Shown one piece after another: positions 3,028 through 63,393 of a DNA stretch of 64,000 nucleotides (position 1 is the stretch's first letter; the number at the start of each line of letters is the position of its first letter). A model generated the notes under the pieces. It was not told the origin of the DNA. It searched no databases and worked only from the letters and a program-made list of their open reading frames with translations. Origin of the DNA: a virus; IMG/VR virus record IMGVR_UViG_3300042934_000594, positions 124,001 through 188,000 of that record, one strand, 5' to 3'. Position numbers and translations under genes: made by a program.

Positions 3028-3060
3028 CGGGGTGCCTGCGGGCGCCCCGCTATGCCGTCT
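3028..3060 (+). terminator. Terminator hairpin with TATGCCGTC tail
   Basis: CGGGGTGCC / GGCGCCCCG give a 9-bp stem with one wobble (3028-3036 and 3041-3049), followed by CTATGCCGTCT. There is no long U-tract; the tail is the phage-wide TATGCCGTC sequence discussed in the findings. Confidence 0.7.
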
Positions 3061-4810: not shown

Positions 4811-6223
4811 ATGGACAACCCCCTGTTTGAAGAGATTGAAGACCTGCCGGCCCCACCGCCGCAGGAACAGATCAAGGTACACGCCTCACCCCCGGCGTAC
4901 CGGGGCATCACCATCGACACCAAGTACGTCCCGTCTTCGGCACTGTTGACTTGGATCGAAGGGTCGAACTGGACGGTGGACTACTACCAACAGTTGTTGA
5001 ACCGCGACACGGAGCCCACGCCTCAAGCGCTGCACCGGGACCCGATCCACCAGCAGTACCGCCTGCTGAAGAAGCTGAGCCTTAAGGTCACCAGCCCGTT
5101 GTCGTTCTCCCAAGACCCTCAAACGCGCCTGATGACTGCCACCGGTGCCGGGGTCACGTACCCTTTCATGGTGGCCAACGAAGGGGACATGTTCATCGCG
5201 GACATCGGCGATGGCCGTCCGGGTATCTTCACAATCACCCGCTCCACCCGGGCCACGTTGTTGATGGACTCGGTGTACAACGTGGAATGGACCATGGTGT
5301 GCCCATGGGACCAAGCCCGTCAGGACGACCTGGACCGCAAGACGCAGGAGAAGTACCACTACTCCGCGCAGTCTTTGTCCAGTGGGTGTGGTCCGTTCAT
5401 CACCGATCAAGACGTCAAGCGTCACGAAGACTACGGCAAGTTCTACAGCGAGATCATCAAGCGCTACTTCACGGACTTCTTCAGTCAGGAGCACAGCACG
5501 CTGTTGATGCCGGATCAATTGGTCAAGACCTACGATCACTTCGTCACCAAGGCTGTGCACCAGCTGTTCGACCTGAAGGACGATCTGCGTGTGCGCCGGA
5601 CACGGGTGCTTAACTGTGACGGTGAGAACGTCATGCAGCAGCCTACCGTGTGGGACGCCATCCTGCGCCGTGACCCTGCGCGTCTGTATGGATGTACGCA
5701 GAAGGCTAATCTTGTGTCGACCAACTATTTCAAAGGTCGCCCCACGTTACAAGCCATGGGTTACACCGGGATCTCGCGCATTGCGTACCCGGAAGACGCC
5801 CCGACGGACGTGGACAGCCAGTACGACCGGGAGAACACGCACCTGCCCATTGGCATCCCGTACCGTGAAGGCTTGCCCCGTCGTCCCCTGCCAGGGCCGT
5901 ACATGACCCAAGCCGAGCGCAGCCTACCGTTCTTTCGCCGGCTGCCTGATGACCTGTCTTCGGACATCCCGGCCTGGAAACTACCCCCGACGATTAAGCC
6001 GGTGGTCGTGGACAGCTACTACATGTTCAGTGAGGCCTTCTACACCCAGCAGCGACACCTGATGTCCAAGTTGGAGTTGTTGACCACCTCGCTGATCCTC
6101 AAAGAAGAAATGAACTACAGTCAGCTCGATGCCGTACTCGACAGTGTGTACGACTGGGATAACTTGGAACGTTTCTATTACCACCCTGTTGTTATTGCGC
6201 TGCTTAAGGCGGCGGTGAGGTAA
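4811..6223 (+). CDS. Virion structural protein, baseplate-like (470 aa)
   Basis: ATG 4811 follows the previous stop by one base. I recognise no catalytic motif. The N-terminal 30 residues are acidic and proline-rich. The middle has Gly-rich turns (TATGAGVTYPF, IADIGDGRPGIF) typical of beta-structured virion proteins, and the C-terminal 100 residues are helical. The size and its place between the 3100 and 6820 genes suggest a baseplate wedge or tail-terminator role, but this is context only. Confidence 0.45.
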   Translation: MDNPLFEEIEDLPAPPPQEQIKVHASPPAYRGITIDTKYVPSSALLTWIEGSNWTVDYYQQLLNRDTEPTPQALHRDPIHQQYRLLKKLSLKVTSPLSFSQDPQTRLMTATGAGVTYPFMVANEGDMFIADIGDGRPGIFTITRSTRATLLMDSVYNVEWTMVCPWDQARQDDLDRKTQEKYHYSAQSLSSGCGPFITDQDVKRHEDYGKFYSEIIKRYFTDFFSQEHSTLLMPDQLVKTYDHFVTKAVHQLFDLKDDLRVRRTRVLNCDGENVMQQPTVWDAILRRDPARLYGCTQKANLVSTNYFKGRPTLQAMGYTGISRIAYPEDAPTDVDSQYDRENTHLPIGIPYREGLPRRPLPGPYMTQAERSLPFFRRLPDDLSSDIPAWKLPPTIKPVVVDSYYMFSEAFYTQQRHLMSKLELLTTSLILKEEMNYSQLDAVLDSVYDWDNLERFYYHPVVIALLKAAVR

Positions 6224-6226
6224 GGC

Positions 6227-6817
6227 ATGAAAACTCCACCTGAGGTCGACCGCAAGACGGCGGCCTACCGGCTGTTTCACTGGAAGTACCAAGTGCGTAT
6301 TCCCCGTTCATTGATGGAGTCTTCGGAATACATCAATAACGTGGGCTATCACGTCAGCGGTGATGCCCGGGTGGATGCCATGCAGTCCACCTCGGTGTTG
6401 GTCATGAACCAAACGGCCGCCGGGATTGCGATTCTGCATTCCCAGGGAGCACCGGTCGATGATTTCCTGTTCTTGAAGAAGTCAGATGCTGCCGACGTCT
6501 ACACCGATATCCAAGAGCACCTGCAAGATTGGAAGCGGGTGACCTACCAGGGCATTCACCCCAATGACTGCCCGCCCATCGAAGACTTCCGGATGTTTGA
6601 GGCAGTGGCGATGGCGTTGTACCGCACGGCTAAGTTCTACGAGCCGGACGAGGCCAGTGGTAACGAATTGCGTGACCGGATCATGATGTTGCACCGCAGT
6701 CGTAACCCGGTGGGAACCGATCGCTACCTGCGCAACAAGATCACGGACGACAAAGGGCAACTGCGCGGCTACGAGTCGATTGTGGACGCTATCGAATCTC
6801 AAATGCTTGAGGGCTGA
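6227..6817 (+). CDS. Unknown virion-operon protein (196 aa)
   Basis: ATG 6227 lies three bases after the stop of 4811-6223 with a GGTAAGG-like SD. The protein is helical, charged and without TM segments; no family is recognised. It contains a HPNDCPPIEDFRMFE segment and a C-terminal RYLRNKITDDKG segment with no known assignment. Tight packing with the flanking structural genes suggests it is a small virion or assembly protein. Confidence 0.45.
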   Translation: MKTPPEVDRKTAAYRLFHWKYQVRIPRSLMESSEYINNVGYHVSGDARVDAMQSTSVLVMNQTAAGIAILHSQGAPVDDFLFLKKSDAADVYTDIQEHLQDWKRVTYQGIHPNDCPPIEDFRMFEAVAMALYRTAKFYEPDEASGNELRDRIMMLHRSRNPVGTDRYLRNKITDDKGQLRGYESIVDAIESQMLEG

Positions 6818-6819
6818 GC

Positions 6820-8187
6820 ATGTCTACCGACGCTACGTTAATGTACAAGGAAGCCGACGCCATCCGTTTGGAAGGCGAGTCACGGGCTAACTATGGCATG
6901 TCCTGTCAACTGTTGGTCAAAGGGCAGTGGCTGAAACCCTACCGCCTGGACCTGTGGCACTTGCACCGCGATTACGTCAAAGGCTTTGGTGATGCGGTGG
7001 TCATCGAGATGATGATGGGCATGGGCACCTACACCTACCAGCTGATCCCCAACCGGGATGACTTGCAGGTGGAGTTGGTGTTTACTCCCATGGCGGAGAA
7101 CAGTGACAAGCAGCGTACCGACACCCGGGTGACGACAGTCCGCTTGCGGGCGATCCTGATGGAGCAGGACAACCAAGCGTTGGTTGGGCGGCACTCACAG
7201 GCCACTGACGAGGAAACGTTGAACCTGGCGAACTACAAGCAGGTGCAACTGCAACTGGTCAGTGAAGCCACGTATAAAGCTCGACTGCAATCGGTGGGTC
7301 GTGGGTTTCGTAAGATGTCCCCTATGGACGTCCTGCGTACGCTGCTGACTGAGTCGGTGGCCATGTTTGGGGGTAAAGATGCGGATCGAATCCAGGGCAT
7401 TGCCAGCATCTCCCCAGGGTTTAATACTGAGGTGCGCAATCAAATAGAAATCCCGCATGGCACGCGCCTGCCGGGCGTATGCGATTTACTTCAGAACAAG
7501 GAAGGCGGGTTGTACCCCACTGGGGCCGGTGCCTACCTTCAGGATAACTTCTGGTACATCTACTCGCTGTATGACACCGCGCAGTTCAAGAAGGCCAAGA
7601 AGACCCTGACCGTGCTCAACGTACCCAAGAACCGGTACTACGGCACAGAGCGTACGTACCGAGTGCAAGGGGATGCGTTGACGATCCTGGTAGCGGGTGA
7701 CGCCTCTGCCTTGGACACCTCGTTCATGGCCAAACTTAATGCCGGTAACGGCTTTCGAGTGGCAGACGCCCGTAAGCTCTTTGACTTTGGGATTGTCAAA
7801 GACAACAAGATGTTGATTGATCGGGCCACCAACGTGTTTGAGGTGGTGACTGACCAGATGAAGAATGGACTCAACAACGTTGCCTGGAGCGCTGATCGGG
7901 CCACCAGTAACCCGTACAAGCACTACACCGACCAGGCCGCCCGACAGGGACAGCAGGTTAAGGTGGAGTGGCAGCACGGGGACAGTGACTTGATTCTGCC
8001 CGGGATGCCAGTGAAGTTTCTGACCACGGACAAAGACCAACTGCGCACCTACTATGGGCGCGTCCACGAGGTTGATGAGCAGCGTGCTCCAGCGGAAGCC
8101 GGGGCCAATGCGTCACGCTACCCCGGTATGGTGACCCTGTCTCTGTTCCTGACCCCAAGTCAGGATCCGTTGGATCAGCCGACATAA
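6820..8187 (+). CDS. Candidate baseplate hub protein, gpD/gp27-like (455 aa)
   Basis: ATG 6820 starts two bases after the previous stop, SD GAGGG. The N-terminal half is beta-rich (QLLVKGQWLKPYRLDLWHL...). A helical insert follows (MSPMDVLRTLLTES), then a segment reading HGTRLPGVCDLLQNKEGGLYP and GAYLQDNFWYIYSL. This alternation of beta-barrel, helical resolvase-like insert and a second barrel, plus the phrase about a display of a script line and an aromatic strand, resembles late-control gpD / Mu gp44 / T4 gp27 hub proteins. I cannot align it by eye across its length, so this is a structural guess. An alternative is another baseplate protein of unknown fold. The spike that would sit on a hub is at 61645-62409. 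Confidence 0.4.
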   Translation: MSTDATLMYKEADAIRLEGESRANYGMSCQLLVKGQWLKPYRLDLWHLHRDYVKGFGDAVVIEMMMGMGTYTYQLIPNRDDLQVELVFTPMAENSDKQRTDTRVTTVRLRAILMEQDNQALVGRHSQATDEETLNLANYKQVQLQLVSEATYKARLQSVGRGFRKMSPMDVLRTLLTESVAMFGGKDADRIQGIASISPGFNTEVRNQIEIPHGTRLPGVCDLLQNKEGGLYPTGAGAYLQDNFWYIYSLYDTAQFKKAKKTLTVLNVPKNRYYGTERTYRVQGDALTILVAGDASALDTSFMAKLNAGNGFRVADARKLFDFGIVKDNKMLIDRATNVFEVVTDQMKNGLNNVAWSADRATSNPYKHYTDQAARQGQQVKVEWQHGDSDLILPGMPVKFLTTDKDQLRTYYGRVHEVDEQRAPAEAGANASRYPGMVTLSLFLTPSQDPLDQPT

Positions 8188-9182: not shown

Positions 9183-9208
9183 CGCTCCCCTGTGGGAGCG
9201 TTTATGCC
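9183..9208 (+). terminator. Terminator hairpin with TTTATGCCG tail
   Basis: CGCTCCC / GGGAGCG stem (9183-9189 and 9194-9200), loop CTGT, then TTTATGCCGC. Confidence 0.8.
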
Positions 9209-10115: not shown

Positions 10116-10140
10116 ACTCCCGTGACCAATAGTACAAGTC

Positions 10141-10178
10141 GAGCTCCTTCGGGAGCTTGGCTGACTATTTCTTTTTTG
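10141..10178 (+). terminator. Rho-independent terminator
   Basis: GAGCTCC-TTCG-GGAGCTT (10141-10158) is followed by a T-rich stretch, CTATTTCTTTTTT. It ends the small-gene run. Confidence 0.75.
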
Positions 10179-10190
10179 GTGGGAGGTGCT

Positions 10191-10661
10191 ATGAGCAGTA
10201 CTGAAGTGAGCGACCGTACGGTGCTGATGGCCAATCGGCTATTGGGTTACAGTTGGCAAAAAGTCAATGACATCCCCAATGAGTTCCCACCGCTGGAGCA
10301 ATGGCTCCACCAGCTGTCTGAGTACCGCTACCCAGGCGCCGAGATCCTGGCGTGGCTGCAAGCCCTGGAACAACACAGTGTGGTTCTGGCCCAGCACTAC
10401 AAGGATCATATCCTGACCTTGCCCGATTACGACCAGCACACGGACTACCTCTGGACGATGACAGAGTTCTGTGAACAACAACCCGGTTTGCTGGATCTGC
10501 TAGGACAGCCCGACGTGGCTGCCCGATCCGACCTCTTCAAGCAATTGCTCACTCACCAGTACACCTACTCTGATCTGACGGTTGCTCAACTCGATTACGA
10601 GATCGGTGCTTTGACAGGCTGGCTGCATTACCTGCACCGTACAGACCTGCCCAAGGAGTAA
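10191..10661 (+). CDS. Unknown helical protein upstream of the macrodomain gene (156 aa)
   Basis: The start is ATG 10191 with GGGAGG; an in-frame ATG-like start at 10122 would read through the terminator stem and is rejected. The protein is all-helical and acidic, rich in Leu, Gln and His (LEQWLHQLSEYRYPGAEILA), with no TM segment. Its stop is four bases from the GTG of the macrodomain gene and the SD of that gene lies inside it, so the two are co-translated. It may be a partner of the macrodomain protein, but nothing in its sequence shows this. Confidence 0.5.
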   Translation: MSSTEVSDRTVLMANRLLGYSWQKVNDIPNEFPPLEQWLHQLSEYRYPGAEILAWLQALEQHSVVLAQHYKDHILTLPDYDQHTDYLWTMTEFCEQQPGLLDLLGQPDVAARSDLFKQLLTHQYTYSDLTVAQLDYEIGALTGWLHYLHRTDLPKE

Positions 10662-10664
10662 GCC

Positions 10665-11144
10665 GTGACTGATTTCGTAGAGGGTTACAACATCTTCGGT
10701 GTAGAGGGTGACCTCTACGTCATCACGGTGAACCTGGTGGGTGTCATGGGCACGGGTGTGGCAGAAGCCTTTCGTGACCGTTACCGCGATCTGTACAACC
10801 TGTACCGCAAGGATTGTCGCAGTCGGGCACTGAAGATCGGACGCCCCCTGGTGTACCAGGCTGACGATGGTAAGCGCTTTATGATGTTCCCCACCAAGGA
10901 CAACTGGCGTAACCCCTCGCAGCTGCTATGGGTGTCACAGGGCCTTGAATGGATGGTGGACAACGCAGGCTCTGAATTTCCGGAGACTGACCACATTGTC
11001 ATGCCTCCATTGGGGTGCGGTAACGGTAAGTTGCATTGGCCGGTGGTCAAAGAAGCCATCCGTGAAGCCATGGACTGCCTGCCCAACCCGGTTACAGTGG
11101 TGGTACCCCCATGGTTGATTGAACAGGAATTGACGTCTATATAA
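10665..11144 (+). CDS. DarG-like macrodomain (ADP-ribosyl-hydrolase family) protein (159 aa)
   Basis: GTG start with AAGGAG six bases upstream. The whole protein is one macrodomain: an N-terminal strand ending in Asn23 (ITVNLVGVMGTGVAEAF, the ADP-ribose-binding loop), a helix with YNLYRKDC, the FPTKDNWRNPS segment with Lys78, and the second loop PPLGCGNGKLHW (114-125). These are the hallmarks of the DarG/Poa1p branch, where the lysine of the PTK-x-x-WR motif is the catalytic residue that removes ADP-ribose from thymidine in DNA. DarG is the antitoxin of DarTG, a known anti-phage system. A phage copy without DarT would plausibly reverse host DNA or RNA ADP-ribosylation. Alternatives are ADP-ribose-1''-phosphate processing in NAD or tRNA-splicing metabolism. 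Family assignment is firm; the substrate is inference. Confidence 0.8.
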   Translation: MTDFVEGYNIFGVEGDLYVITVNLVGVMGTGVAEAFRDRYRDLYNLYRKDCRSRALKIGRPLVYQADDGKRFMMFPTKDNWRNPSQLLWVSQGLEWMVDNAGSEFPETDHIVMPPLGCGNGKLHWPVVKEAIREAMDCLPNPVTVVVPPWLIEQELTSI

Positions 11145-11181: not shown

Positions 11182-11379
11182 GTGTCTAACGTGGTACAGT
11201 TTCCAGTGCTCAAACGTCTCGTCGGTCCTGAGACCGAAGTTTTCTTGGTAAGTCTGGCACGCTCCAGCGGCTTGCCGATCACCGCCCGCCAGTTACGCAC
11301 CATGGCGGAGAACTTCATTCGCGTCAACCAAGATTTGGCAGCCAGTGGCTTGCCAGCCCTGTTCGACCCCCGCGCGTAA
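11182..11379 (+). CDS. Small unknown protein (65 aa)
   Basis: GTG start at 11182 with a strong AAGGAGG SD. Basic N-terminus (MSNVVQFPVLKRLV), one helix-turn-like segment (PITARQLRTMAENFIRVNQ) and a short tail. No TM segment. It could be a small regulator or adaptor, but there is no recognised domain. First gene after promoter copy 3. Confidence 0.5.
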   Translation: MSNVVQFPVLKRLVGPETEVFLVSLARSSGLPITARQLRTMAENFIRVNQDLAASGLPALFDPRA

Positions 11380-11423
11380 GCGTGGGGTGCTATGCCCTTT
11401 TATACCCATTGAGGAGTAAGACC

Positions 11424-14750: not shown

Positions 14751-15932
14751 ATGTCGAAAGTAGAACAGCATCTGCGTGCGTCGCAAGAAGAGCACCAGGA
14801 AGAAGCAGTAGAAGGCGAAGTGGTCCAGAACGAATGGATCGAGTTGCCCCAGGACACCATGGCCGACGTTTACGAAGGCGAGCAGACCAAGGAAGCGCTG
14901 GACCAGTTGGCGGACAAAGTCGATGCCGGTGACGACAAGGTGGTTGACCAGGTAGCCCTGGAAAACTTCAACTGGACGTTCAAGACCCTGACCCGTCTGA
15001 CCAACCTGACGCCGAAAACCTTCCCGGCGCTGGAAGACTACACCCACGACGCCCCGTTGCAGCGTAAAGTCCTGAGTGGTGCGATCCGCGCTCACTCTGA
15101 CCGTCTGGCCCGTGCCATCAATTTCGGCCTGGAAGACTACACCGAGTCGTTCGGCAACAACCTGCAACAGCTGGTTGAGAGCATGAAGAGCTCCCAGGCT
15201 GATCTGAATCGTTCGCTCGGTCGCATCAACGGTCTGCCCAGCAAAACCGTCAAAGTCAACCATGCCAAAATCTGGGCGATGCTGCACGTCAATGGTCGTT
15301 TCGTCAAAGACCTGGACGGGGCGATCACCGATGAGCAACGTCACCTGCGCGAACTGCTGACCGTGGCCAAAAATGCTGCGGCTGAAGTTGCCAAGATGGC
15401 CAAAGAAACTGAAGCGCCTTCAGCTGAAGGCGTGGAAGCGGCGATGAACCGTGGCGGTGACGTTGAACTGATGTTCAACACCAGCGTGTCGTTTTCCGGT
15501 GGTCAGGTTGACTTCCAGCGTAACTCCCCACCTTCCCCGAAAACCGAGAAGGTAGGCAGCGACTACCTGCGTGGCGCAGCGTGGGGCACCCTGTTCGGCT
15601 TCCTGCTGCTGGGCCCTGCGTTCCTGTTGGGTACTGTGATCGGCGCCGTGGGTTCCTCGGCCACTGGCAGCACCTCGGCCAGCAAGCGTGACGTGGACGG
15701 CGTGAAGAGCTTCCTGCAAGACCTGGGCGGCTTTGCCAAACTGGCGGCTGATATCGAAAGCATTGCTGAATCGCTGAACGATTCCGTCAAAGCCTCGACG
15801 GCTCACGGCGCTGTTGTCAAGCGTGCAGCGGCCCCAGTGATGGAACTGATGTCTGGCATCGCCAAGCACGTAGCCGAACTGTGCTATGGTGGCGCCAACA
15901 TGGCTTCGGCCCTGTCGACTGCTTCCAAGTAA
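14751..15932 (+). CDS. Inner-head-like virion protein (393 aa)
   Basis: ATG 14751 is the first good start after an AT-rich leader; the SD is weak. The acidic N-terminal 60 residues (EEAVEGEVVQNEW...) and the VALENF segment near residue 68 match the protein at 1689-3020, and the helical body (AIRAHSDRLARAINFGLED) has the same layout. Near residue 270 a hydrophobic Gly/Ala/Leu stretch (GTLFGFLLLGPAFLLGTVIG) resembles one TM helix or an injected membrane-active segment. That is notable, because proteins expelled with the DNA often carry such stretches. I interpret it as a member of the inner-head paralogue group; ejection is inference. Confidence 0.55.
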   Translation: MSKVEQHLRASQEEHQEEAVEGEVVQNEWIELPQDTMADVYEGEQTKEALDQLADKVDAGDDKVVDQVALENFNWTFKTLTRLTNLTPKTFPALEDYTHDAPLQRKVLSGAIRAHSDRLARAINFGLEDYTESFGNNLQQLVESMKSSQADLNRSLGRINGLPSKTVKVNHAKIWAMLHVNGRFVKDLDGAITDEQRHLRELLTVAKNAAAEVAKMAKETEAPSAEGVEAAMNRGGDVELMFNTSVSFSGGQVDFQRNSPPSPKTEKVGSDYLRGAAWGTLFGFLLLGPAFLLGTVIGAVGSSATGSTSASKRDVDGVKSFLQDLGGFAKLAADIESIAESLNDSVKASTAHGAVVKRAAAPVMELMSGIAKHVAELCYGGANMASALSTASK

Positions 15933-38683: not shown

Positions 38684-41600
38684 TTAGTAGCTAGCGCCAG
38701 TGGAACCGATCCACTTAGCACCGTTCCAGACGAGGGTAACCACAGTGATCGTAGTACCCAGGACCGGGGCCGTGTTCTGGTTCCAGGACACGTTGGCCGG
38801 CCAGGTGATCGCACCGGTGTTACCGTTGATGAAGATGACCACCGTCATCGAACGGTCAGCCGCAGGTTGGTTCTTGAAGGTCAAGGTCCGCGCTGCGGTC
38901 TGGGTGAAGTTGAACACCTGCGCCACAGCGAAGTCCAGTTCCGAACTGGTGGCCGTTGGCAATTGCGCCAGCGCCAGGTCGTAACGGTTGAACCGTGCCC
39001 AAGCGCCGTCCTTACGCTGGTAGACCGCACCCGGTACGTCAGTCGGTGCATCAGAGATACCCGACGCAGGCGCCGTGTACTTGACCCACTGGCCGTCTTT
39101 GCGGAAGTACGCTGCACCATCGACTGGGGCTTCACCTACGGGCAAGGCCACCCACTGACCGTTCTCACGGATGTAGGGTTTGCCGTCAGTTGGAGCTTCA
39201 CCCACTGCCAGCTCGACCCAGTTCGCACCTTTACGGCCGTAGATCTTGCCGTCGTCCGAAGGGCTGTAGACGTTGCCGCCCCCGAAGTGGCCCAGGCTGG
39301 TCCAGGTGGTGGTGTTGGACTTGGTGAAGTACTCCTGCGTGAGCGTGTTGTACCAGTAGTCACCAGCCGAACCGTCCACCAGGCCAGGGTCACGGGTGTC
39401 GTTGAGCCAGAGGCTACCACGGGCACCTTTATCACCTTTATCACCCTTGTCGCCTTTGATCCCAACGCCAGGTTCACCCTTGTCGCCTTTTGGACCGGTG
39501 ATGTTACCCAGGTCCTCGTAGGCGCTACCCGTCCAACCCCAGAAGTGCGAGTTGATCAAGTAACCTTCACCCAGGATGCCGTCCGCAGGCAGGTCAGCGG
39601 TGCTGGCCAGCTTACCGAGGATCTTGACGCCTGGACCCATCAGACCTTGCTCACCCTTGAGCGAGTTCAGCCAGTCCTGTTCCAGACCTTCAAAGCCCAA
39701 CATGACCGCGATGTCGTACGCCGAAGGACCGGTGAGGTCGTTGAACGCCACCCAGGCTTCGTCGTGGAACACCGTCATTACGCCTTTGACGAAGTACACG
39801 TCGCCTTCTTCGTTGCCTTCTGGAGGCAAGTCAGACGCTTCTTGTACCGCACCTTTGAGCTTGAGCGATGCGCCCGTTGGACCAGTCAGACCGATGTCAC
39901 CTTTATCACCCTTGTCGCCCTTCACCCCTTTGAGGTTACCTGCGTTGGTGAAGCCGGTGCCGGTGTAGATGTACAGGTCACCGTTGATTTGCAGGTAGGC
40001 ATCGCCCATCTGCTGACCAGTGGTTGGCAGCTCATCGACGCTTTGGATGACGCCAGTGATTTCAAGGCCGTTACCCTGCGCCCCAGGATCACCTTTATCT
40101 CCCTGGTCACCTTTATCACCTTTGTCCCCCTTGTCACCGTCATCGCCTTTAGGGCCGACGTACGTACCACCGTCTACCCAAGCGTTGTTGATGTTGAGGT
40201 ACAGGCGCTGACCACCGATGACGGCTTCGTATGGGGCCGCAGTGGCCACATCTGGCAACTCATCGACGCTGTCGTAGACGCCCGTGATGGCCAGGTCTTT
40301 ACCTGGGTCACCCTGATCGCCTTTGATGGAGTCGCCCTGATCACCCTTATCGCCTTGGTCACCTTTATCCCCTTTCAGGGAAGCGAGCCATTCGGCCTCG
40401 GTGCCAGTGTAACCACCCGTCTTGGCTGCTTCGTACGCCGACTTACCGACCAGCGTCTTGAGGAACTCGTCCTTGGTCCCGGTGAAGCCTTCAGCCACCG
40501 CCAGTTCGTAAACGCCCTGACCGTGCAGCGAAGCCAACCATTCGGTCAGCGTGCCTTCGAAGCCTTCATCGACAGCCGCCTCGTAAGCGGACGTACCGCC
40601 CAGTGTGCCCAGGTCGATCCAACCATCGGTCGCCGAGAACACAAACAGATGACGGTTGACGTAGTACGCATCACCCGGCTGGTTATCGGTCGCTGGCAGG
40701 TCTTCGGCGGAGGGGAACTGACCCAGGATTTTGACGGAGTTTGCAGGGATACCCTGGTCACCTTTATCGCCTTTGTCACCCTTATCGCCTTGGTCACCTT
40801 TGATCGTCAGCAGCCATTCCGCTTCCGTGCCTTCGAAGCCGTTCTTGACGGCGATCTGGTAGTTGGTTTTACCAACCAACGACGCCAGCCATTCAGCTTC
40901 AGTTCCGGTGAAGCCGTTGTCCTTGGCTGTCTGGAAGGCAGTTTTACCCACCAGCGATGCCAACCACTGGGCTTGGGTACCCTGGTAGCCATTGGCTTGA
41001 GCGATGGCGAACGCCGACTTACCTTCTGGACCGACCTGACCCACCTTGGCCCATTTGGTGTTGTCCCAGACGTACATCGTCTCATTGATGATGTAGCAGT
41101 CGCCTGGCTGGTTACCCACGGTTGGCAGTTGTGCCACGTCAGGGTAAGAACCCAGGATACGCAGACCCAGGCCATCGGTACCGCGCAAGGTTTCGAACCA
41201 CTCCTCGTACGTACCTTCAAAGCCGTTCTGCTGGGCCAGCTCGTAGGCGTTCAGGCCGCGTTCACCACGGATCTGACCCACGTTGCTCCAGGCGCCTTGG
41301 TACATGGTCCACAGGTCGTCACCGATGATGTAGGACTCGCCTTCATCAACCGTTTCAACCGCCGGCAGGTCGCTTTCAGCCGCCAAGGTACCGATGATGC
41401 GAGTACCCACACCCAGGCCACCGTCGTCACCCGGTTCGCCTTTATCACCCTTGTCGCCTTTGAGCGAAGCGATCCAGTCGGCTTGGCTACCGGCAAAGCC
41501 CAGGCTCTTGGCGGTGTCGTAGGCGGACTTGCCCACCAGGCTTTCCAGCCAGGCCGACTCTTCCCCATTGAAACCGTTTTCAACCGCGATCTCAAACGCT

Positions 41601-42742
41601 GACTTACCGTCAGTGCCTTTGAGGGCGTCGAGCCACTCTTCTTCGGTGCCGCCAAAACCTGCGGCTACCGCGAGTTGGAACGCCGACTTGCCCGCAAGCG
41701 ACGCTACCCACTCAGCCTCGGTCCCGGTGAAGCCGTTGATACGAGCCACTTCGTAGGCCGAGTTACCGTTGTCACCTTTGTCCCCCTTGAGGGAGGCAGT
41801 CCAGTCAGCCTCACTGCCGGCGAAACCTGCGGCCACAGCCACTTCATACGCAGATTTGCCAATCAGGCTTTCCAACCACTGGGCTTCGGTGTCTTCAAAG
41901 CCAGCCGCTTGGGCCACTTCAAAAGCCGACTTGCCGGTCAAGCTGGCGCGCCATTCGGCTTCAGTGCCCGTGAACCCTGCATCCTTGACCAGGTCGAATG
42001 CCGACTTACCTGGATTACCCTGATCGCCCTTATCCCCTTGATCGCCTTTATCACCGACCAATGAGGTCAGCCAATCGGCCTGAGTGCCGTCGAACCCGCC
42101 GGCTTGGGCGACCTCAAAGGCACTCTTGCCCACCAGGGACTTGAGCCATTCGGCTTCAGTGCCTACAAAACCTTCGGCCTTGGCCACTTGGTAGGCGTTC
42201 TTGCCCACAAGCGAAGCCAGCCATTGTGCTTCAGTACCGGAGAACCCACCGGCAGAAGCCAATTGATACGCGGTCTTACCGATCAGCGAGTTGAGCCACT
42301 GTGCTTCGGTCCCGGCAAAGCCGTTCTCGATGGCGACTTCATAGGCGCTCGAACCGGTGACGCCTTTGAGCGATTGAATCCACTGCACTTGGGTGCCAGT
42401 GAAGCCGTTTACCACGGCCACTTCATAGGCACTGTTACCTGGATCCCCTTTGACACCTTTAAGCGACGCTACCCATTGCGCTTCGGTACCGCTGAAGCCC
42501 AACTGTACGGCAACTTGATAGGCAGACTTGCCTTTGAGGGACTCGATCCACTGGGCTTCAGTGCCCGTGTAACCGTTGGCAACAGCAACCTCATAGGCGG
42601 ACTTGCCCTCGTTACTGCGCAACTTGGTGATCGAGATTTTCTTGTTGACCAACACTCCGTCCAGGCCACGTTGGATGATTTCAACAAACTCATCGCCAGT
42701 GAACGCTGTGACGAGCTCCAACTCTGAGATCTTGCCAGTCAT
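38684..42742 (-). CDS. Giant collagen-like repeat tail fibre (1352 aa)
   Basis: Start ATG 42742 (MTGKISELELVTAFTGDEF). The N-terminal about 45 residues form a likely virion-attachment module also present at the start of 43829-44296. Then come 22 copies of a roughly 24-residue repeat of the form SAYEVAV-x-x-GF-x-GTEAEWL-x-SL, separated in places by Gly-x-y collagen-like runs (GDKGDKGD, GDQGDKGD) and by short beta modules (e.g. DLPTVGNQPGDCYIINETMY). The C-terminal about 180 residues form a globular tip with repeated WVxLxVGEAPxDG modules. A trimer with collagen rods is expected. The repeats explain the CRISPR-like periodicity of the DNA here. Confidence 0.8.
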   Translation of the reverse strand: MTGKISELELVTAFTGDEFVEIIQRGLDGVLVNKKISITKLRSNEGKSAYEVAVANGYTGTEAQWIESLKGKSAYQVAVQLGFSGTEAQWVASLKGVKGDPGNSAYEVAVVNGFTGTQVQWIQSLKGVTGSSAYEVAIENGFAGTEAQWLNSLIGKTAYQLASAGGFSGTEAQWLASLVGKNAYQVAKAEGFVGTEAEWLKSLVGKSAFEVAQAGGFDGTQADWLTSLVGDKGDQGDKGDQGNPGKSAFDLVKDAGFTGTEAEWRASLTGKSAFEVAQAAGFEDTEAQWLESLIGKSAYEVAVAAGFAGSEADWTASLKGDKGDNGNSAYEVARINGFTGTEAEWVASLAGKSAFQLAVAAGFGGTEEEWLDALKGTDGKSAFEIAVENGFNGEESAWLESLVGKSAYDTAKSLGFAGSQADWIASLKGDKGDKGEPGDDGGLGVGTRIIGTLAAESDLPAVETVDEGESYIIGDDLWTMYQGAWSNVGQIRGERGLNAYELAQQNGFEGTYEEWFETLRGTDGLGLRILGSYPDVAQLPTVGNQPGDCYIINETMYVWDNTKWAKVGQVGPEGKSAFAIAQANGYQGTQAQWLASLVGKTAFQTAKDNGFTGTEAEWLASLVGKTNYQIAVKNGFEGTEAEWLLTIKGDQGDKGDKGDKGDQGIPANSVKILGQFPSAEDLPATDNQPGDAYYVNRHLFVFSATDGWIDLGTLGGTSAYEAAVDEGFEGTLTEWLASLHGQGVYELAVAEGFTGTKDEFLKTLVGKSAYEAAKTGGYTGTEAEWLASLKGDKGDQGDKGDQGDSIKGDQGDPGKDLAITGVYDSVDELPDVATAAPYEAVIGGQRLYLNINNAWVDGGTYVGPKGDDGDKGDKGDKGDQGDKGDPGAQGNGLEITGVIQSVDELPTTGQQMGDAYLQINGDLYIYTGTGFTNAGNLKGVKGDKGDKGDIGLTGPTGASLKLKGAVQEASDLPPEGNEEGDVYFVKGVMTVFHDEAWVAFNDLTGPSAYDIAVMLGFEGLEQDWLNSLKGEQGLMGPGVKILGKLASTADLPADGILGEGYLINSHFWGWTGSAYEDLGNITGPKGDKGEPGVGIKGDKGDKGDKGARGSLWLNDTRDPGLVDGSAGDYWYNTLTQEYFTKSNTTTWTSLGHFGGGNVYSPSDDGKIYGRKGANWVELAVGEAPTDGKPYIRENGQWVALPVGEAPVDGAAYFRKDGQWVKYTAPASGISDAPTDVPGAVYQRKDGAWARFNRYDLALAQLPTATSSELDFAVAQVFNFTQTAARTLTFKNQPAADRSMTVVIFINGNTGAITWPANVSWNQNTAPVLGTTITVVTLVWNGAKWIGSTGASY
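39652..42601 (-). repeat. 22-copy SAYEVA...GTEAEWL tandem repeat inside the fibre gene
   Basis: Counted by eye from the translated fibre: 22 copies, most directly adjacent, the last ending near 39650. Copies differ mainly in the middle four residues and in whether GDKGD-type linkers follow. Two more copies of the same motif occur in the 43829-44296 protein, so the unit is mobile between fibre genes. Confidence 0.8.
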
Positions 42743-42848
42743 TTCGACTTCCCCTGCTGTGATACCCGATGGGCTTGCGCCCGTTTTACCCCGGCCGCTA
42801 CGTTGGCCGGTAATAACGTTTCAAACTCATAGATAAATGTATTTTTTC

Positions 42849-42884
42849 CCGAGACGGCATAAAAGCAGCCCCCGAAGGGACTGC
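42849..42884 (-). terminator. Terminator of the minus-strand fibre gene 42902-43759
   Basis: On the minus strand GCAGTCCC-TTCG-GGGGCTGC (42884-42865) is followed by TTTTATGCCGTCTC. Shows the recurrent tail in the reverse orientation. Confidence 0.8.
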
Positions 42885-42901
42885 CTGTTTTGCGGGACAG
42901 C

Positions 42902-43759
42902 TTACGCCAACACGCCTTCGTCCAGAGTCCAGGAACCATCCTGTTCTTTGGTGAAGCCGATGTCGGTCAGCAGCGCTTGCAGGCCTGCTGCGGTCGCGAA
43001 CTTGGCATCGTCAGTACCTTCGATCAGTTCAGCACCAGTCGCCTTGACAGGCAGAACCGGGGCTTCTGGCGCGGTGTACTTGAGTTTGCCCGTGGCCGCG
43101 TCGTATTCCAGGCCGGCGTCGGAGGCGGCATCAAGGCTGATGGCTTGCCGAGCACGTTCGTCGGTGAAGTACTTGTTGCCCGCACCTTCAGTAACCTGGT
43201 CAGTGCTACCAGGCGAGGCAACGATTTCCAGGTACTGCGTGCCAGTCCAACGGAAGGCGCCAGCGCCGTCAGCTGCCACGTAGATCTTGCCGGATTCACC
43301 TTCAGCTGGGAAGTCAGCTTCGGTTGGGAATTCCAGCACGTCATCGACGTAGGAAGGCAGGATGCCAGCTTTCAGGAAACCGGTGGTGCCTTCGAACAGG
43401 TCAGCCGTGGCGGCTTTGCCTGCAACCACGAGGGTCAGGTCATCAACAGACTGTTTGCTGGCCATGGTGGCCAACGCTTCAGACAGGGTTTCCGACAGGG
43501 CGTCGAGGTCCGAGTCATTGGCTTTGGCCAACAGGGCTTCAGTCAGACCAGGGATGTCCGACAGTTCCAGAGCACCAACCTTCTGGTCAATCAGAGCACC
43601 GATCTGGGCTTCGCTCAGACCGCCGATCAGGTGACCACCTGCGGTCACGCCATCTTGCACGTAGACCTGGTTGGTTTGAGTGTCGACCACCAGACTGCCG
43701 GCAGGACCTACATAGGCGCCGACCAGGGCGGTAGTACCGCGCTTGAGTTTAACGATCAT
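42902..43759 (-). CDS. Short tail-fibre protein with phage adhesin-type N-terminus (285 aa)
   Basis: Start ATG 43759 with GGAG; the TTG at 43771 overlaps the SD and is rejected. The first 45 residues (KLKRGTTALVGAYVGPAGSL then VVDTQTNQVYVQDG) match the N-terminal module of many phage tail fibres and adhesins. Then come helical rod segments (LSEAQIGALIDQKV, ALSETLSEALATM) and a beta tip (YVAADGAGAFRWTGTQYLEIV). Likely part of a fibre complex with the genes on either side. Confidence 0.6.
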   Translation of the reverse strand: MIVKLKRGTTALVGAYVGPAGSLVVDTQTNQVYVQDGVTAGGHLIGGLSEAQIGALIDQKVGALELSDIPGLTEALLAKANDSDLDALSETLSEALATMASKQSVDDLTLVVAGKAATADLFEGTTGFLKAGILPSYVDDVLEFPTEADFPAEGESGKIYVAADGAGAFRWTGTQYLEIVASPGSTDQVTEGAGNKYFTDERARQAISLDAASDAGLEYDAATGKLKYTAPEAPVLPVKATGAELIEGTDDAKFATAAGLQALLTDIGFTKEQDGSWTLDEGVLA

Positions 43760-43828
43760 GCTGTTCTCCAAGGTGTTGCGTGAATCGGCTTATGAGCAGT
43801 ATGCCCCAGCCTCACACAATAGGTGACT

Positions 43829-44296
43829 TTACGAACGGATGGTGAGCTCGCCTTCATCGATGACCAACTCACCGGCATCGTTTACCACAAAACCCAGTCG
43901 CTCAAGCGCTCGAACAACGGGTACATCTAGTGGGGTCCACTCCCCCACCGTATCGCCTGCAACCAACACGTGCCCTTTAACGTCTGGGGTAACGCTGTAC
44001 AGCGCCCCGAGGGCGGTGATCCAATCCGTTTGTGTCCCTGGGAAACCCTGATCGACAGCGATGTCATAGGCCGATTTCCCAACCAGCGTGGCAAGCCACT
44101 CTTCTTCAGTCCCTTCAAAGCCATGCTTGACGGCAATCTCGTACGCCGACCCGGTACTGAGTTCCAAGTCCCGCTTGATCGTCTGCAAACTGACCTGGCG
44201 GTTCTTGAACGTGCCTGCCACCTGAACCACGACTTCAAACAGCGCATCGAGGGTCAGCTTTTCAGCCGGTTGCATTTGTGAAATTTTGCCTGCCAT
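43829..44296 (-). CDS. Mini tail-fibre protein with two fibre repeats (155 aa)
   Basis: Start ATG 44296 with AAGGA. Residues 1-47 (MAGKISQMQPAEKLTLDALF) match the N-terminal attachment module of the giant fibre, followed by two SAYEIAV...GTEEEWL-type repeats and a short C-terminal domain (GHVLVAGDTVGEWTPLDVPV). A cut-down paralogue of the 38684-42742 fibre, perhaps an assembly or connector subunit. Confidence 0.65.
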   Translation of the reverse strand: MAGKISQMQPAEKLTLDALFEVVVQVAGTFKNRQVSLQTIKRDLELSTGSAYEIAVKHGFEGTEEEWLATLVGKSAYDIAVDQGFPGTQTDWITALGALYSVTPDVKGHVLVAGDTVGEWTPLDVPVVRALERLGFVVNDAGELVIDEGELTIRS

Positions 44297-44311
44297 CGCT
44301 GTGTCCTTAGG

Positions 44312-45160
44312 TTACGCTAGCAGCTTCTTGGCGCGGGTGTATTCAGCTGCCAGCTTGGTGTCGTATTGATTTTTGGCGTAGCCTGCACCGTTGTACAGGC
44401 GGGCGAAATTCACCCAGTCTTGCGTTTGGATGGCCTTGAGCAAACCGCGCTGAGACTGGATAAACTTGACGAAAGCTTCCAGCTGCATACGTTCACTGAC
44501 GTACATCGAGGCGACGAACGCATCGACGCTGGCAAAGCCCAGCAGTTCCCAGTGGAAGCCCATGATCTGGTACGCCCCCCACGAGGCCGATTCCAGCGCT
44601 GCGGCCTTATTGATGAGCTTAGCCTTCTCCAGGCGGTCGTATTCCCGTGAACCGCCGATGTAACCGCCGGACTTGGTATTCACCAGACCCGGTTGGTTGG
44701 CCATGAACGGCGCTGGCTTGATGTCGTGCTCATCGAGCATGCGGTACATGATGTGGCGTTCGAACAGAATCACGGGACGACCGTCATCAAAGAAGCCGTG
44801 ACCGCGTGATTCCACGGCGTTGACGCACATCACTGACGCAACGTCTGTGCGCAGTGCACCGGCCGCCCATACAAGGTCAGCTTGACTGAGCAGTTTCAGG
44901 CTGACAGGGCAGCAGCCCCGAAGGATCTTGATGGTCTTAGGACCCGCAATTCCATCAGCTACCAGGTTGTTCTTGGTCTGAACAGCCCGGACGAACTTTT
45001 CGGTGGTAGGGCCGAAATCGCCATCGGGTTTGAGTTGGTAACCGGCGTTGACCAGAAGCTGTTGCAGCTCCAGGACCTCGGCACCTTTATCACCACGACG
45101 CAATACGGCATCTTTCGCAACTGCGACCCGATCTTCGGCGCCCAGTGTCGACAGATCCAT
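44312..45160 (-). CDS. Endolysin: PG-binding domain plus N-acetylmuramidase (282 aa)
   Basis: Start ATG 45160 with TAGGAG (MDLSTLGAEDRVAVAKDAVL); the longer ORF upstream has no SD. Residues about 20-85 form a PG_binding_1 module (GDKGAEVLELQQLLVNAGYQ, then DGDFGPTTEKFVRAVQ). Residues about 100-282 match the N-acetylmuramidase (DUF3380-type) domain, with Glu117 in NAVESRG as the expected catalytic acid, SWGAYQIMGFHW and ARLYNGAGYAKNQYD. Cuts peptidoglycan during lysis; it lacks a signal peptide and so needs a holin or another export route. This two-domain order matches endolysins of Pseudomonas jumbo phages. Confidence 0.9.
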   Translation of the reverse strand: MDLSTLGAEDRVAVAKDAVLRRGDKGAEVLELQQLLVNAGYQLKPDGDFGPTTEKFVRAVQTKNNLVADGIAGPKTIKILRGCCPVSLKLLSQADLVWAAGALRTDVASVMCVNAVESRGHGFFDDGRPVILFERHIMYRMLDEHDIKPAPFMANQPGLVNTKSGGYIGGSREYDRLEKAKLINKAAALESASWGAYQIMGFHWELLGFASVDAFVASMYVSERMQLEAFVKFIQSQRGLLKAIQTQDWVNFARLYNGAGYAKNQYDTKLAAEYTRAKKLLA

Positions 45161-63366: not shown

Positions 63367-63393
63367 CGGCATAAAGGCGTCCCTAAGGACACC
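63367..63393 (-). terminator. Terminator with TTTATGCCGTC tail (minus strand)
   Basis: On the minus strand GGTGTCC-TTAG-GGACGCC (63393-63376) is followed by TTTATGCCGTCTG. Ends the transcript of the inner-head-like gene at 63401. Confidence 0.8.

Follow-up and report, generated by a model that had tools for sequence, protein, structure and literature searches.

DarG macrodomains and known counters to DarT

DarTG has been confirmed as a defence against phages. Bacterial DarG removes ADP-ribose from DNA and neutralises DarT. The macrodomain of Thermus aquaticus DarG (TaqDarG) alone rescues DarT toxicity, which the inactive K80A mutant does not, and the K29E substitution impairs its activity (PMC5179494). 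TaqDarG also acts on RNA, where it strips ADP-ribose from uracil with a lower efficiency than TARG1 (PMC13036486), a macrodomain enzyme with a Lys/Asp catalytic dyad in which the second residue is Asp125 (PMC9411070). Phage-encoded counters to DarT have been described in ICP1 (AdfB) and RB69 (AdfA); AdfB is a 77-aa DarT binder with no macrodomain (PMC11481870), and the literature searched yielded no enzyme of the DarG macrodomain type with a counter-defence role. A survey of jumbo phages reported macro domains in 56% of them (PMC9503650); in existing annotations phiKZ gp104 is a macro-domain protein, and 201phi2-1 gp167 is given an ADP-ribose-binding domain. What is new here is that such a protein is placed in the DarG class, that DarT-paired and toxin-less forms separate cleanly, and that the phage nucleus raises a question about them.

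A DarG-type macrodomain gene in a phiKZ-type virus

The window (the whole 64,000-nt stretch analysed, part of a 269,430-base virus record) carries a real open reading frame of 159 aa (10665-11144, + strand) with a GTG start and a Shine-Dalgarno sequence, AAGGAG, 6 nt 5' of it (10653-10658, +). The earlier note had called the product a DarG-type macrodomain, and it is one: searches with NCBIfam, PADLOC and PDB sequences and the predicted structure all agree, with a similarity far above chance. Specifically, the NCBIfam DarG model NF048014 matches with 134.6 bits (E=4.6e-39; the model for generic bacterial macrodomains gives 0.15), a score under the equivalog cut-off of 250 from a match that spans only positions 7-147 of the 338 in the profile, and the PADLOC DarG model gives 2.3e-38. 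Conversely, the Pfam Macro model reaches only 9.4e-4, under its cut-off, so that the protein would be missed if judged by that model alone. In phmmer searches against PDB sequences, the best scores are those of TaqDarG (7.2e-25), M. tuberculosis DarG (MtbDarG, 1.2e-22) and the DarTG fusion 7omu (1.2e-19), with TARG1 at about 0.005; identity over the fold is 40% to the Thermus and 34% to the M. tuberculosis protein. The structural comparison with DarG that had been proposed as a check points the same way, since the AlphaFold model (pLDDT 95, pTM 0.90) retrieves TaqDarG with bound ADP-ribose (5m3e) as the best Foldseek match (5.5e-17, TM 0.85/0.89, 1.7 A), with MtbDarG at 5.9e-16 and TARG1 at 5.4e-10. 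Judged by its sequence, the gene product would be a stand-alone ADP-ribosyl hydrolase made of the DarG-type macrodomain only.

The active site and the ligand loops were compared with TaqDarG using the residue roles given in PMC5179494. Asn9, Thr21, Asn23, Val32, Thr77, Lys78, Trp81, Gly117, Gly119, Asn120 and Gly121 are kept, and three positions are changed (Lys29 to Thr30, Gln34 to Ala35, His82 to Asn80); at the Lys29 position, most of the phiKZ-type clade has Ala or Leu, and Ala also occurs in 6 of 21 DarG forms. Lys78 (codon 10896-10898, +), in the motif PTKDNWR, corresponds to the catalytic Lys80 of TaqDarG and to Lys84 of TARG1, Asn23 (10731-10733, +) to TaqDarG Asn22, which mutant data show to be needed for activity (PMC5179494), and Trp81 (10905-10907, +) to TaqDarG Trp83, an alanine in TARG1. 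The DarG-type loops and the catalytic-type lysine recognised in the earlier reading are thus borne out by the match of the ligand-loop residues to TaqDarG and by the alignment of 53 sequences, in which Asn23, Thr77, Lys78, Trp81, Gly117 and Gly121 are invariant. The ADP-ribose-grasping loop GCGNG (Gly117-Gly121, 11013-11027, +) has Gly at the equivalent of TARG1 Asp125, as in DarG, and the TARG1-type Lys/Asp dyad is therefore not present. The likeness to the DarG proteins of T. aquaticus and M. tuberculosis consequently extends to the fold, the three residue pairs Lys78/Lys80, Asn23/Asn22 and Trp81/Trp83, and the lack of a second catalytic Asp, whereas that to TARG1 and ALC1-like macrodomains comprises the fold and the Lys at the catalytic place (a Gln in SCO6735), with 22% identity to TARG1, Gly for Asp125 and Trp for Ala90.

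Unlike the DarG of DarTG, the window form stands without DarT and without the C-terminal DarT-binding half, and it is acidic overall. Whole-record searches for DarT, NADAR, sirtuin and KptA, carried out family by family, all came back empty over the 269,430 bases, which confirms the earlier remark that no DarT lies beside the gene and rules out both a phage-borne DarTG and NADAR, KptA or sirtuin partners. The C-terminal half is absent from the protein, as the profile match ends at 147/338, and is not encoded next door: no neighbour matches DarG, an ART or a known partner, and a split DarG is thereby ruled out as well. A protein lacking this half would be expected to act by repair only, with no restraint of a toxin by binding.

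Relatives and evolution of the stand-alone forms

Matches were found in 257 phage records, with full-length relatives at about 50% identity in phiKZ, 201phi2-1, PhiPA3, PA1C, Phabio, Psa21 and others. The window form and the other phiKZ-type sequences, to which it is sister, make up a 14-member clade (support 100/99). It resembles phiKZ gp104 (PHIKZ104), 201phi2-1 gp167 and PhiPA3 gp108 (about 48-52% identity), which belong to the same clade and occupy the same place after gp99-gp101; the order gp99-gp100-gp101-...-gp104 is common to the window and the phiKZ-type phages, with the orthologues of gp99, gp100 and gp101 (virion region; 4811-8187, +) as the syntenic anchor. Sequence, tree and synteny agree that the gene is orthologous to phiKZ gp104 and 201phi2-1 gp167. 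At three positions, Asn9, Gly119 and Asn120, the window form agrees with TaqDarG, whereas Asp, Ala or His is found in much of the clade; in all other respects it is the same thing as its three named counterparts. A further member, on phage contig L016 (4224-5471), has a macrodomain frame that continues, with no stop between, from a sequence that by eye resembles a GIY-YIG homing endonuclease, which looks like a recent insertion or fusion.

The pairing with DarT was surveyed in 168 loci, of which 80 are on viral contigs, 80 on genome contigs, 7 in named phages or the present record, and 1 on a plasmid that served as control. They were taken as the best matches to the query and not as a random draw, with a few near-identical records counted twice. 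Forms with at least 100 residues beyond the macrodomain were classed as long, and the rest as short or stand-alone. DarT adjoins 109 of the 117 long forms and 1 of the 51 stand-alone ones, and this single exception (L032) is a fragment cut by the contig end. Long DarTG forms account for 79 of the 80 genome loci, including those of Pseudomonas (L112, L122, L139, L145, L166). The tree requires 11-12 switches between the short and the long form, of which well-supported branches force at least 4-5, and the AU test rejects a single clade of stand-alone forms, and with it their single origin in phages (p=2e-41). The direction of these changes is unproven because the root is uncertain; phages nevertheless seem to have gained the enzyme half of DarG repeatedly, as would be expected of a counter-defence function, although this is not proof of one.

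In close phiKZ-type pairs, dN/dS is 0.03-0.12, a range that is rough because synonymous sites are near saturation in many pairs and that indicates strong purifying selection on the macrodomain. Mean pI and charge are 5.4 and -5.2 in the phiKZ-type clade (L002-L004, L010-L020) and 5.4 and -3.5 in the window protein, compared with 7.7 and +1.0 in DarG macrodomains and 8.3 and +2.1 in the other phage stand-alone forms; most neighbour proteins in the window are likewise acidic.

Genomic context and expression

The macrodomain unit begins after a terminator-like hairpin (10137-10162, +) and includes a 156-aa gene (10191-10661, +) that matches no known family and has no counterpart in the phiKZ-type regions compared. 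Downstream lies a small gene of 65 aa (11182-11379, +), for which the family search returned none, and the unit is closed by a hairpin followed by TATGCC (11370-11396, +), terminator-like and late-promoter-like with the TATG consensus of PMC4666361. No sigma-70 promoter was found 5' of the macrodomain gene. The block of small genes noticed earlier is real and also adjoins phiKZ gp104; inside it, a 393-aa protein (14751-15932) has a weak ZorA match (PADLOC 5e-4).

The element composed of a GC hairpin and TATGCC has about 16 intergenic copies in the window, with TATGCC(G/C) at 3051, 9203, 11391, 12338, 13772, 15962, 16368, 20960, 27247, 34066 and 62704 on the + strand and at 63373, 59047, 46189, 42861 and 442 on the - strand. 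It resembles a terminator fused to a late promoter of the phiKZ type, in which the motif is TATG and the G is the start site (PMC4666361), TATG by itself being insufficient to define one. This element is probably the promoter-like motif that the earlier note had linked to host takeover, a link that does not hold: the motif fits the phiKZ late TATG, the gene comes after the virion genes gp97-gp101, and the nearest copies flank it at 9203 and 11391, with none directly in front. Since the gene lies between two TATG elements and after virion genes, its context is no argument for early takeover; gene order and motif instead suggest late rather than immediate-early expression, and no report of gp104 expression timing was found in the literature searched. 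The repeat GATAAAGG was dropped as a promoter candidate, as it is probably coding (by eye, a Gly-rich collagen-like repeat). A collagen-like Gly-X-X repeat (GDKGDKG...) in an apparently coding frame occupies about 39400-45100 on the - strand.

Proposed role and alternatives

By analogy with DarG, the macrodomain is somewhat more probably than otherwise an eraser that reverses base-linked ADP-ribose damage caused by the DarT of the host or by another base-modifying ART toxin related to it. Lys78 would attack the C1'' atom of an ADP-ribose attached to a base of the nucleic acid, at N3 of thymine on the DarG model and possibly also on uracil, and release it, the damage coming from a toxin set free by infection. 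A counter to DarT or to another ADP-ribosylating defence is a plausible role, with indirect support from the DarTG loci present in the genomes of Pseudomonas, the host of the named phage relatives, and from toxin-less DarG macrodomains turning up in phages repeatedly and independently. Antisense knock-down of PHIKZ104 in PAO1 slightly lowers ChmA and leaves PFU and CFU unchanged, and its authors suggested that genes of this type matter in more competitive conditions or in hosts with other defences (PMC12571901). This outcome, the rescue by TaqDarG and its activity on uracil fit a conditional counter-defence without proving it. Against a counter-DarT function count the presence of chmA, the acidity of the clade, the change of Lys29 to Thr and the likely late expression; moreover, purifying selection this strong is more in keeping with a housekeeping enzyme than with a rapid arms race. 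If the proposed role is correct, the repair half of a bacterial antitoxin has been taken up by phages several times over, an idea that can be put to the test directly in the phiKZ family.

A general clean-up of ADP-ribose for RNA repair or NAD metabolism, acting on ADP-ribose-1''-phosphate, O-acetyl-ADP-ribose or protein Glu-ADPr and not against DarT, is rather unlikely. TARG1, of the same macrodomain class, handles several linkages (PMC9411070), many phage macrodomains have been argued to serve small molecules or RNA repair (PMC9503650), several phage records name the protein phosphatase or Appr-1-p processing, and the low dN/dS agrees with such a task; however, DarG is by far the best match, over the generic macrodomain, Lys78 and Trp81 are retained, and KptA, sirtuin and NADAR are missing from the record. 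The absence of sirtuin, KptA and DarT, together with neighbours that match no ART, also makes it highly improbable that the protein reverses the phage's own ADP-ribosylation as half of a phage-encoded pair, even though ART-macro and sirtuin-macro pairs exist in phages (PMC9503650). Binding or destruction of ADP-ribose-derived immune signals of the Thoeris type would not involve a nucleic-acid substrate; ThsA effectors carry macro domains as signal-binding parts (PMC11204291) and phages degrade or sequester such signals (PMC13232231), but sequence and structure group the protein with hydrolases of base-linked ADP-ribose, and this function is improbable. The position after virion genes and the ChmA decrease upon knock-down (PMC12571901) could be accounted for if the protein were a pseudo-enzyme, or a reader of ADP-ribose, that takes part in assembling the virion or the nucleus. 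This is nonetheless very unlikely, as all catalytic residues are kept and the protein is not among the mass-spectrometry virion proteins of the 201phi2-1 annotation.

The target of the proposed eraser is complicated by the nuclear-shell gene chmA, which the virus record carries (G000:77541-79292; 43% identity, E=2.7e-140) and which places it among the nucleus-forming jumbo phages (Chimalliviridae). The virus should therefore form a phage nucleus and thereby conceal its DNA from host enzymes, which raises the question of why a phage that hides its DNA would encode an eraser of base-linked ADP-ribose. The shell of Chimalliviridae keeps DNA-targeting defences from phage DNA and leaves transcripts exposed (PMC13282480), so that direct shielding of phage DNA by the macrodomain is doubtful, and, given the acidic make-up of the phiKZ-type clade, ssDNA is less obvious as a substrate. 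Exposed transcripts, shielded DNA and an acidic clade are the reasons for retaining, as an unlikely alternative, an enzyme turned to RNA, which would strip ADP-ribose from uracil or other bases of phage mRNA exported to the cytoplasm and so counter an undescribed RNA-modifying ART defence.
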